Source: Mesohalobacter halotolerans
GTDB lineage: Bacteria; Bacteroidota; Bacteroidia; Flavobacteriales; Flavobacteriaceae
Assembly: GCF_006120725.1 (NCBI RefSeq)
Contig: NZ_SWMU01000001.1
Span: 62,001 to 126,000, forward strand
Length of the DNA stretch: 64,000 bases
Direction: 5' to 3'
Made by a program: the position numbers and the translations under genes
Shown here: positions 23,556 through 25,551 of the stretch, piece after piece
How the letters are laid out: every line of letters begins with the position of its first letter
How positions within the stretch are numbered: position 1 is the stretch's first letter
Notes under the pieces: model-generated
Told to the model about the DNA's origin: nothing
The model's input: only the letters and a program-made list of their open reading frames with translations
Databases searched by the model: none

Positions 23556-24884
23556 ATGGAAACCTTTTGGATAAAAGCTGCTCAACTCATTTTAAGTTTA
23601 TCAATCCTTGTCGTCTTGCACGAATTGGGTCACTTTATACCGGCAAAACTGTTTAAAACTAAGGTTGAAAAGTTTTACCTCTTTTTTGATGTGAAGTTTT
23701 CTTTATTTAAAAAGAAAATTGGTGAGACGGTTTATGGCATTGGTTGGCTACCCCTTGGTGGTTATGTAAAAATTGCCGGAATGATAGATGAGAGTATGGA
23801 TAAAGAACAAATGGCCAAACCTCCACAACCTTGGGAGTTTAGAAGCAAACCGGCTTGGCAACGTCTTATTATCATGTTGGGTGGCGTGACAGTAAATATT
23901 ATCATTGGGATAGTGATTTACATTATGGTGCTTTTTGTTTGGGGCACAGATTATCTTCCAAAGGAAAATTTAAATAATGGTTTAGCAGTAAATGAAGTTT
24001 TATATGAATATGGTTTTCAAGATGGTGATATCATCCTGAGTATTGATGACGAACCTTTGAACAATCAACCTGAAGTCAATAAATATTTGATGTTGAGAAG
24101 TGTTGAAACGATTACCGTAGAGCATCAAGATGGAAGTATTGAAACTATTGACATCCCGGAAGATATTGGGAGTCAGCTCTTTCAAAAAGGTGTTATGGTT
24201 CCGTTTGGCCTTAAGTTAGAGCCGGTTATCGACTCCGTTCTACCCAATGAACCGGGAAAAATTGCTGGCTTAAAAAAAGGTGATAAAATGCTGGCCGTAG
24301 ATGGTCAACCTACGCCCTATTGGGATGATTTTACTAAAGCAGTCGCCGATGCAAAATCAGATACAATTCAATTGACTTATATGAATACCAACGAAGAAGA
24401 AGTCGATACTCAAATTATTTTAAATGAAGATAAGAAGATAGGTATTGCCGTCCAAAATTCACTTGCCGGGCAATTTGAACATAAAAACTATTCCTTGTCT
24501 GAGAGTTTTGCTTCTGGGTTTAGTTATGGCTACTGGACTTTAAGAGATTATATCGCTCAATTTAAATATGTATTTACTAAAAAAGGCGCGACTCAAGTTG
24601 GCGGTTTTGGAGCTATAGGAAGCCTCTTTCCTTCCGCATGGGACTGGCAATCCTTTTGGATGACTACAGCTTTTATATCTATAATTTTAGCTTTTATGAA
24701 CATTTTACCTATTCCTGCACTAGATGGCGGACATGTTGTCTTTTTGCTTTATGAAATGTTAAGCGGAAGAAAGCCAAACGAAAAAGTTTTGGAGTACGCA
24801 CAAATGATTGGGTTTTTCTTACTTATTGCATTAGTACTTTTTGCAAATGGTAATGATATCTATCGTTTTATTTTTGATAACTAA
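23556..24884 (+). CDS. rseP: RIP metalloprotease RseP (site-2 protease)
   Basis: RseP is an inner-membrane zinc protease that cleaves anti-sigma factors and signal-peptide remnants within the membrane. HELGH (residues 22-26) is the zinc site in helix 1; the third ligand motif is in NILPIPALDGGHVVF (about residue 388). PDZ sequence lies between (LNNGLAVNEVLYEYGFQDGD and a second copy near GKIAGLKKGDKML). At 442 residues it is full length. A -7 box TATTTTTG is seen at 23523-23530. The tRNA-Asn locus follows downstream. Confidence 0.95.
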   Translation: METFWIKAAQLILSLSILVVLHELGHFIPAKLFKTKVEKFYLFFDVKFSLFKKKIGETVYGIGWLPLGGYVKIAGMIDESMDKEQMAKPPQPWEFRSKPAWQRLIIMLGGVTVNIIIGIVIYIMVLFVWGTDYLPKENLNNGLAVNEVLYEYGFQDGDIILSIDDEPLNNQPEVNKYLMLRSVETITVEHQDGSIETIDIPEDIGSQLFQKGVMVPFGLKLEPVIDSVLPNEPGKIAGLKKGDKMLAVDGQPTPYWDDFTKAVADAKSDTIQLTYMNTNEEEVDTQIILNEDKKIGIAVQNSLAGQFEHKNYSLSESFASGFSYGYWTLRDYIAQFKYVFTKKGATQVGGFGAIGSLFPSAWDWQSFWMTTAFISIILAFMNILPIPALDGGHVVFLLYEMLSGRKPNEKVLEYAQMIGFFLLIALVLFANGNDIYRFIFDN

Positions 24885-24920
24885 AATGACATTATTTTTT
24901 CAAAAATTGAAAAATAAGTT

Positions 24921-24949
24921 TTTGATATTTAAAATTTAAATTATATTTG
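24921..24949 (+). promoter_or_regulatory. promoter driving the tRNA-Asn repeat array and tRNA-Asn
   Basis: TTTG (24921-24924) and TATATTTG (24942-24949) are 17 bp apart and match the Bacteroidota consensus. The predicted start falls just before the first tRNA-derived unit at 24962, so all three units should be on the same primary transcript as the tRNA. Confidence 0.75.
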
Positions 24950-24961
24950 CACTCGCAAAAT

Positions 24962-25210
24962 TCCTCCTTAGCTCAGTTAGTTAGAGTCCCGCACATGCGG
25001 GATTAATCAGAGGAGCTAATGAGATTGAAATAAAAGAGTTAAATTCCTCCTTAGCTCAGTTGGTTAGAGTCCCGCACATGCGGGATTAATCAGAGGAGCT
25101 AATGAGATTGAAATAAAAGAGTTAAATTCCTCCTTAGCTCAGTTGGTTAGAGTCCCGCACATGCGGGATTAATCAGAGGAGCTAATGAGATTGAAATAAA
25201 AGAGTTAAAT
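24962..25210 (+). repeat. three tandem 83-bp units derived from tRNA-Asn
   Basis: Units start at 24962, 25045 and 25128 and run without spacers into the intact tRNA at 25211. Each begins with the first 25 nt of tRNA-Asn (acceptor 5' strand and D arm), then has TCCCGCACATGCGGGA in place of the 5' half of the anticodon arm, then TTAATCAGAGG as in the tRNA, then GAGGAGC as at the tRNA 3' end, with the T arm missing, and finally an A+T-rich linker. Units 2 and 3 are identical. Unit 1 differs at 24979 (the D-loop GG is AG). CTCCTTAGCTC (24964-24974) can pair with GAGCTAATGAG (25013-25023) in 10 of 11 positions, enclosing the inner 6-bp hairpin, so each unit can fold into one long rod. Confidence 0.9.
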
Positions 25211-25284
25211 TCCTCCTTAGCTCAGTTGGTTAGAGCATCTGACTGTTAATCAGAGGGTCCAAGGTTCGAGTCCTTGAGGAGGAG
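25211..25284 (+). tRNA. tRNA-Asn (anticodon GTT)
   Basis: A complete cloverleaf is present: acceptor TCCTCCT/AGGAGGA with discriminator G, D arm GCTC/GAGC, anticodon stem TCTGA/TCAGA with loop CTGTTAA (anticodon GTT), and T arm CAAGG/CCTTG around TTCGAGT. The 3' CCA is not encoded (the DNA continues CAAAAA). It is preceded by three derived units and a promoter, and followed by a terminator. Confidence 0.97.
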
Positions 25285-25293
25285 CAAAAACAG

Positions 25294-25316
25294 CCTAGCA
25301 AAACGCTAGGTTTTTT
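25294..25316 (+). terminator. rho-independent terminator of tRNA-Asn
   Basis: CCTAGC (25294-25299) and GCTAGG (25305-25310) form a 6-bp stem with a 5-nt loop, followed by six T. It lies 10 bp past the tRNA end. Confidence 0.85.
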
Positions 25317-25325
25317 GCTTTGTAG

Positions 25326-25551
25326 ATGTTTTACGTTTATATTTTATTTTCTGAAAAGTTTGACAAATATTACGTCGGTTCTTCTCAAAATCCTTGGAAG
25401 AGACTACAAATACACAACACTTCAACATTTAATACATTTACCTCAAAATACAGACCTTGGGTGTTGAAAGCAGTTTTTAAAGCTGGCAAAACTCGTGGTA
25501 AAGCTGAAAAAATTGAATGTGCATCCCAAATTTATTGATGTAATTCGTTGA
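25326..25551 (+). pseudogene. GIY-YIG nuclease-like small protein, probably frameshifted
   Basis: The reading from 25326 gives MFYVYILFSEKFDKYYVGSS, then RLQIHNTSTFNTFTSKYRPW, a good match to the start of the single-domain GIY-YIG (UvrC N-terminal-like) family, with YVYI...YYVG as the GIY-YIG equivalent and the usual RPW. The frame stops after 70 residues (25538). Homologues continue with a Lys-rich helix and KFIxxxI. In the next frame KFIDVIR can be read at 25528-25548 before TGA, so about 14 bp seem to be missing near 25516-25525. It directly follows the tRNA terminator. A short functional product cannot be excluded. Confidence 0.5.

Follow-up and report, generated by a model that had tools for sequence, protein, structure and literature searches.

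Integrases classically use tRNA genes as landing sites, and in E. coli the rtT repeats of tyrT form tandem units downstream of the tRNA that contain its 3′ end. In holding a piece of the adjacent tRNA these tandem units resemble the array ahead of tRNA-Asn described here, but to our knowledge they have no palindrome in a tRNA arm and no GIY-YIG gene. SLX1, which cuts branched DNA, and UPF0213 are likewise related to the nuclease described below, being single GIY-YIG domains and its nearest solved structures by sequence and fold, with SLX1 differing in having further domains and a partner, SLX4, and with the matches to the protein encoded next to tRNA-Asn being weak.

SegB of phages T4 and T6 is a free-standing GIY-YIG homing endonuclease (PMC13096335; PMC2988022), with cleavage peaks within tRNA genes and an activity required for tandem amplification, according to PMC13096335. 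SegB offers a tested precedent in which tandem amplification at tRNA genes depends on a nuclease and, like the cassettes described here, is a GIY-YIG enzyme adjoining tRNA genes (PMC13096335). How SegB spares its own genome is given as an open question (PMC13096335). Read on the opposite strand, its motif RAWTSGAAC appears to us to resemble the T loop GTTCRA. SegB is a phage gene, however, and the accessible text describes no insertion within a tRNA arm, no palindrome cap and no tRNA-encoded C-terminus (PMC13096335).

In fungal mitochondria, mobile ORFs have been described in which an endonuclease ORF inserts, a replacement 3′ part keeps the gene whole and the native 3′ part is displaced downstream (PMC3630166; Allomyces as cited there). 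The cassettes found at tRNA-Asn (the Asn type) have the same order of intact gene, ORF and displaced native end, with a tRNA in the place of the protein gene. The fungal elements differ in lying in mitochondrial protein genes and in being mostly LAGLIDADG, with GIY-YIG in atp9, and under the word 'hairpin' no palindrome was found in the accessible text (PMC3630166). Searches of an open-access library listed no account of GIY-YIG cassettes embedded in the tRNA genes of bacterial chromosomes, which is weak evidence of absence, with most subscription papers and all bioRxiv preprints outside that scope.

The 83-bp array upstream of tRNA-Asn

The window, by which is meant the whole 64,000-nucleotide stretch of Mesohalobacter halotolerans DNA analysed, contains three 83-bp units that abut an intact tRNA-Asn gene directly (Table 1). 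The units had been placed in the preliminary description, and both an exact check and Tandem Repeats Finder (period 83, 3.3 copies, 99% matches) reproduced them, with units 2 and 3 identical, as had been claimed, and unit 1 one base off. Each unit begins with tRNA-Asn nt 1-25, has TCCCGCACATGCGGGA replacing nt 26-35, resumes the tRNA at nt 36 with TTAATCAGAGG and closes with AGC and a tail of 28 nt, and the T arm is missing from every unit; the anatomy first proposed, in which 25 nt of the tRNA 5′ end are kept, the T arm is missing and the 5′ side of the anticodon arm is replaced, holds wherever checked. The intact tRNA-Asn is the sole tRNA called in the window by ARAGORN and Rfam. By eye, the tails of the Asn units (window 25183-25210) and those of the tRNA-Met units of another genome, G010 (L087), have ~12 nt in common, ATGAGATTG followed by an A-rich stretch.

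Table 1. Positions of the array, the tRNA-Asn gene and neighbouring features in the window.
Feature	Position	Strand	Remarks
Promoter-like TTTG-N17-TATATTTG	24921-24949	+	Pattern match; precedes array and tRNA
Unit 1	24962-25044	+	Palindrome 24987-25002; tRNA-Asn nt 1-25 with one change
Unit 2	25045-25127	+	Palindrome 25070-25085
Unit 3	25128-25210	+	Palindrome 25153-25168; identical to unit 2
Intact tRNA-Asn, anticodon GTT	25211-25285	+	ARAGORN, Rfam
Intrinsic terminator-like hairpin, 3′ of tRNA	25292-25312	+	
Truncated GIY-YIG ORF, 70 aa	25326-25538	+	PF01541, 1.9e-11

The rod into which each unit had been suggested to fold was borne out, with 10 of 11 pairs in the predicted outer stem and a folding energy for unit 2 of -32.2 kcal/mol vs a shuffled mean of -15.3 (z -5.9; 0/200 shuffles as good), while unit 1 gave a z of -4.4. 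The promoter proposed ahead of the array fared less evenly. The TTTG-N17-TATATTTG motif, which we take to be the Bacteroidetes promoter, is present, but it occurs five times in the window vs a shuffle mean of 3.8, with at least five occurrences in 32/100 shuffles; since the pattern is not enriched, the match alone proves nothing, and the argument for this putative promoter is its location ahead of the tRNA unit. As had also been stated, no terminator-like site lies between the units and the tRNA when 24850-25350 is scanned, the inverted repeat 3′ of the tRNA, called on both strands, being the sole such site in that stretch. A search of 24900-25330 in Rfam (E up to 5) returned no curated RNA family for the array, since apart from the tRNA it gave three matches that fell short of the gathering score, and Rfam found no group I intron in the window. 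No downstream palindrome copy was found after the tRNA-Asn of the window.

The array is not confined to one assembly, a restriction that would have counted as a refutation in the preliminary description, relatives having been searched for the unit as had been proposed there. The search covered 60 genomes, 27 of them from the genus (Psychroflexus), with many further matches coming simply from ordinary tRNA-Asn genes, at their 5′ end. Of the genus genomes 3/27 have upstream units (G000, G010 and G018), with four in G010, a genome in a single contig that also has downstream palindrome copies, and one in G018 beside one downstream copy; G001, G008 and G026 have a single downstream copy each. Outside the genus, Indibacter alkaliphilus, of another family, has three upstream units and G625, from another family of the class, has one. 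In G013 the promoter and leader are as in the window with the tRNA directly after them and no array, and the same promoter stretch also precedes the array in G010.

Folding of the upstream units was strong in that from G018 (z -3.9) and in three of the four from G010 (-4.5 to -5.4), with -2.1 for the remaining one. Those of Indibacter and G625 folded less well (-3.1 to -2.0), and the units of the array at the G010 tRNA-Met barely exceeded chance (-2.1 to -0.7). Unit 2 of the window differs from unit 4 of G010 at 2/83 bases, and the flanks are about 80-83% identical to the window (79.8 and 83.5 in G013; 83.0 in G010, for a stretch that includes the array). That the units are more alike than their flanks fits constraint, gene conversion or recent exchange.

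GIY-YIG cassettes downstream of tRNA-Asn

Neither a GIY-YIG ORF 3′ of the tRNA nor the replacement of an arm by a palindrome at other tRNA genes of the genome formed part of the preliminary description. In G010 the order is tRNA, terminator, a GIY-YIG ORF of 101 aa, the 3′ half of tRNA-Asn and a second terminator. The last codons of the ORF are the tRNA D arm and the palindrome (GKLAQLVRVPHVRD), with the stop in TAATCAG, and the ORF starts of two such blocks are 382 bp apart. The ORF of the window, at 70 aa, is truncated vs the 101 aa in relatives in which it ends in the tRNA D arm and the palindrome, with PF01541 matching at 2.3e-12 in G010 and 1.9e-11 in the window. The order of tRNA, terminator, ORF and broken tRNA was read in G010, G018, G001, G008 and G026, and again in G229 with the ORF broken. 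At the two loci compared, the displaced 3′ half is identical to the resident tRNA in G026 and differs from it in G229.

A protein scan of the genome collection gave 17 loci, at 12 of which the match runs up to the tRNA-encoded end; these full-length loci span several families of Bacteroidota and come from Psychroflexus, Olleya, Zeaxanthinibacter, Indibacter, Mesonia, Tamlana, a Flammeovirgaceae MAG and other MAGs. tRNA-Asn lies upstream on the same strand in 9/12 (four of the nine established through the same contigs); of the other three, two are cut off by the contig end within the tRNA tail and L062 has its tRNA-Asn on the opposite strand. Among 20 Psychroflexus tRNA-Asn loci, 10 have a GIY-YIG match at most 1.5 kb downstream, one being a relic. 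Three of these 10 (G004, G015 and G025) have no palindrome as defined by the search pattern. In general, small GIY-YIG genes are not tied to tRNAs, 5/48 lying at most 400 bp downstream of a tRNA among the matches listed, a count of downstream ORFs in 40 hand-picked regions of which the pattern missed 6.

Where it could be computed, dN/dS of the body of the Asn-type ORF was 0.08-0.32, a rough estimate with synonymous sites near saturation in most pairs, which on such estimates shows the ORF to evolve under purifying selection. Its AlphaFold model (pLDDT 88) comes closest to structures of SLX1, followed by UPF0213, while I-TevI gave a weaker match, and the best E in the fold comparison was 7e-4 (6seh). 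A sequence search of solved structures agreed on SLX1 (6e-4) and UPF0213 (0.002), weak matches at ~20-30% identity. No relatives of the Asn-type protein were found in phages, viral contigs or plasmids, a further difference from SegB. A search for defence and phage families gave one weak PADLOC match (E 0.032) and none in PHROGs. The GIY-YIG protein tree, with 1/13 inner branches starred, gives no basis on which to judge transfer.

Across carriers and non-carriers, 30 of 31 intact tRNA-Asn genes have the same anticodon arm, compared at 30 loci chosen for likeness to the window; Lewinella (L065), with a different anticodon arm and a short GIY-YIG match, was left out. The insertion thus spares its presumed target, and the altered or lost target by which a homing endonuclease is recognised in carriers was not seen. 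That carriers keep an unaltered tRNA speaks against homing of the textbook kind.

Several further arrangements were observed. Between the second and third copies of the element after tRNA-Asn in G010 (L024 1766-4400) lie an AraC-type regulator and an ORF pair split by a stop, the latter with no Pfam match, which could possibly be cargo inside a tandem array. At L027 1263-1562, and at the same place in L026, the same broken tRNA-Asn contains a different second GIY-YIG ORF (PF01541), whose end lies in the T loop at another palindrome, CCCCGATAACTATCGGGG, so that two cassettes are nested in one tRNA copy. By eye, the end of the truncated ORF of the window (25500-25540) resembles this second kind (IECAS..), and the ORF looks as if a deletion had fused two cassettes. 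Six tandem GIY-YIG ORFs, of the subfamily found beside the tRNA-Met of G010, are present in L096 (G012), with no tRNA called in its 5.9 kb.

Palindromes and broken copies at tRNA genes

Fourteen variants of the palindrome were found at the Asn anticodon site. Covariation was counted on 13 of them, one Indibacter variant being left out and palindromes at other positions not included. The helix pairs in 98.9% of cells, with two-sided changes at 3/7 pairs (9 cells) and four invariant pairs. None of 500 shuffles reached the pairing percentage, the number of two-sided cells or the covariation score, with 8 reaching the number of two-sided pairs and 44 that of pair types; in slid controls 24-58% of cells are paired. 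A TCCCG/CGGGA core is common at the Asn site across families with the inner pairs covarying. Two different palindromes are present in neighbouring copies in G460, and in G388 a palindrome at another position has a mismatch. The Asn palindrome itself seems to be kept, because protein coding does not call for covariation. The Asn type is sparse, as a strict palindrome search of the family sample found it in 3/299 genomes (one, G181, L045, without a tRNA in 3 kb) and a looser pattern in 7/395 genomes of the phylum sample.

The survey of the window's own genome took in all 37 listed tRNA genes with their flanks, at 23 loci, with a partial copy defined as an exact match of at least 13 nt in the flank of the tRNA. 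Such copies lie on the same strand in 17/37 and on the opposite strand in 0/37, the control with tRNAs of other loci giving 11/814 and 0/814, respectively; a BLAST version of the count gave 15/37 and 0/37 with controls of 11/814 and 1/814. The pattern is far stronger here than elsewhere, since same-strand partial copies were found at 2/30 tRNAs of the congener G019, 2/31 of G460 (same class) and 1/32 of G417 (same phylum), in samples of 20 loci each that covered 30/35, 31/38 and 32/44 of the tRNAs. GIY-YIG ORFs lie within about 450 bp of 7/37 own-genome tRNAs.

At nine own-genome tRNA genes a GC-rich palindrome lies at the edge of the fragment, with a tenth, Ile, sharing the palindrome assigned to Ala, in a listing for which a 9-nt match on one side suffices, which has no shuffled control and which includes two unrelated rows in G417. 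The junctions fall in the T loop, the anticodon arm or the D arm, and the T-loop palindromes begin directly 3′ of GGTTC. The genome has 23 palindromes of the form CCCGA-N(2-8)-TCGGG vs 4 for the reversed control pattern, and 13/23 lie at most 500 bp from a tRNA vs 0.27 expected, a P value that overstates the case because the pattern was chosen after such palindromes had been seen beside tRNAs. In L120 and L121 of the same genome (tRNA-Lys and tRNA-Ile), a second palindromic sequence, CTGAGCTTGTCGAAG, occurs in the broken copies beside the TCCCGA..TCGGGA kind, and related letters are present in the tRNA-Met units of G010.

Two layouts recur. Downstream, the intact tRNA is followed by a terminator, an ORF in some cases, a tRNA piece, the palindrome, a further tRNA piece and a terminator, while upstream a tRNA piece, the palindrome and in some cases an ORF, present at tRNA-Arg and tRNA-Cys, precede the intact tRNA. 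The array of the window has the upstream layout without an ORF, and its nearest parallel is found in G010, where seven units of 125-128 bp, likewise free of an ORF, form an array 5′ of the tRNA-Met. Congeners also have tandem cassettes 3′ of tRNA-Phe (L105) and 5′ of tRNA-Arg (L098).

Origin of the array

The array is probably an ORF-less upstream satellite of a family of small GIY-YIG elements living in the tRNA genes of Bacteroidota. As read from the sequences compared, the loci show a cassette lying beside an intact tRNA gene together with a displaced piece of the same tRNA, which is broken at an arm (the anticodon arm for Asn; the D or T arm for other tRNAs) and joined to a palindrome at the break, and show units recurring in tandem with or without the ORF. 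Nuclease-driven mobility would be consistent with this arrangement, with both mobility and cleavage being predictions from sequence. The GIY-YIG nuclease would cut hairpin DNA or an arm of the tRNA gene. The cassette would then be placed by repair from another copy, either neighbouring or incoming, and such repair would also drive tandem gain and loss. Alternatively, the enzyme may be SLX1-like and act on branched or hairpin DNA, which would fit the palindromes. The three units of the window would be remnants of this process of placement and tandem growth, forming hairpins in the 5′ leader of pre-tRNA-Asn that would be removed when the tRNA 5′ end is made, and a separate RNA function would not be needed.

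Plain duplication and decay, in which slippage and template switching at tRNA genes with strong hairpins leave tandem fragments and perfect palindromes with the GIY-YIG genes as later guests, seems unlikely as an explanation. Most own-genome fragments have no adjoining ORF (GIY-YIG at 7/37 tRNAs, fragments at 17/37), the ORF of the window is broken and template switching could make palindromes, all of which would suit such an origin, but the core at the Asn site is constant across families while its inner pairs covary, the Asn-type ORF appears to be under purifying selection and the layout at the Asn site recurs in distant genera. It is improbable that the rods of the leader are a functional RNA acting as a decoy, a processing signal or a regulator of tRNA-Asn. 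The strong rod fold and the near-identity of unit 2 to its G010 counterpart (2/83 bases changed), set in flanks about 80-83% identical, are as such a role would have them; the units are present upstream in 3/27 genus genomes, however, the folding of those in Indibacter and G625 and of the tRNA-Met array is weaker (z -3.1 to -0.7), no Rfam family fits and their similarity may stem from gene conversion or exchange. Among the interpretations offered in the preliminary description, duplication would form part of the answer, while a decoy, mimic or processing substrate found no positive support.

REP-like palindromes moved by a RAYT (Y1) transposase and landing in tRNA copies by chance would be in keeping with short GC-rich palindromes in AT-rich DNA and with the second palindrome kind held by some copies. 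This candidate was rejected and is very improbable, with a Y1_Tnp (PF01797) match absent from the one genome searched, the window's own, and with 13/23 palindromes of the searched kind lying near tRNAs. Scars at the attachment sites of integrase islands that use tRNA genes are hardly credible as a source: integrases commonly duplicate tRNA 3′ ends, but the fragments here lie tens to a few hundred bases from the tRNA, include 5′ pieces and have palindromes at arm junctions.

The hairpin-capped tRNA fragments, some beside a tiny GIY-YIG gene, look like an undescribed kind of mobile element. Such tRNA-gene cassettes would be grouped with the known nuclease-borne selfish elements, with a fair chance that they deserve a class of their own. 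The chances are roughly even that they represent a new class of bacterial mobile element in which cassettes of ~80-400 bp colonise tRNA arms, bear a covarying DNA hairpin cap and encode a lone SLX1-like GIY-YIG nuclease that reads either the tRNA gene or the hairpin structure, and in which tandem multiplication yields ORF-less satellites like the window array. If this is true, invasion of tRNA genes by a lone nuclease domain, hairpin-capped and growing in tandem, would stand in parallel to that by integrases as a further way to inhabit essential genes, some small bacterial GIY-YIG genes would acquire a role, and whether the enzyme reads sequence or DNA structure becomes a question that can be tested.
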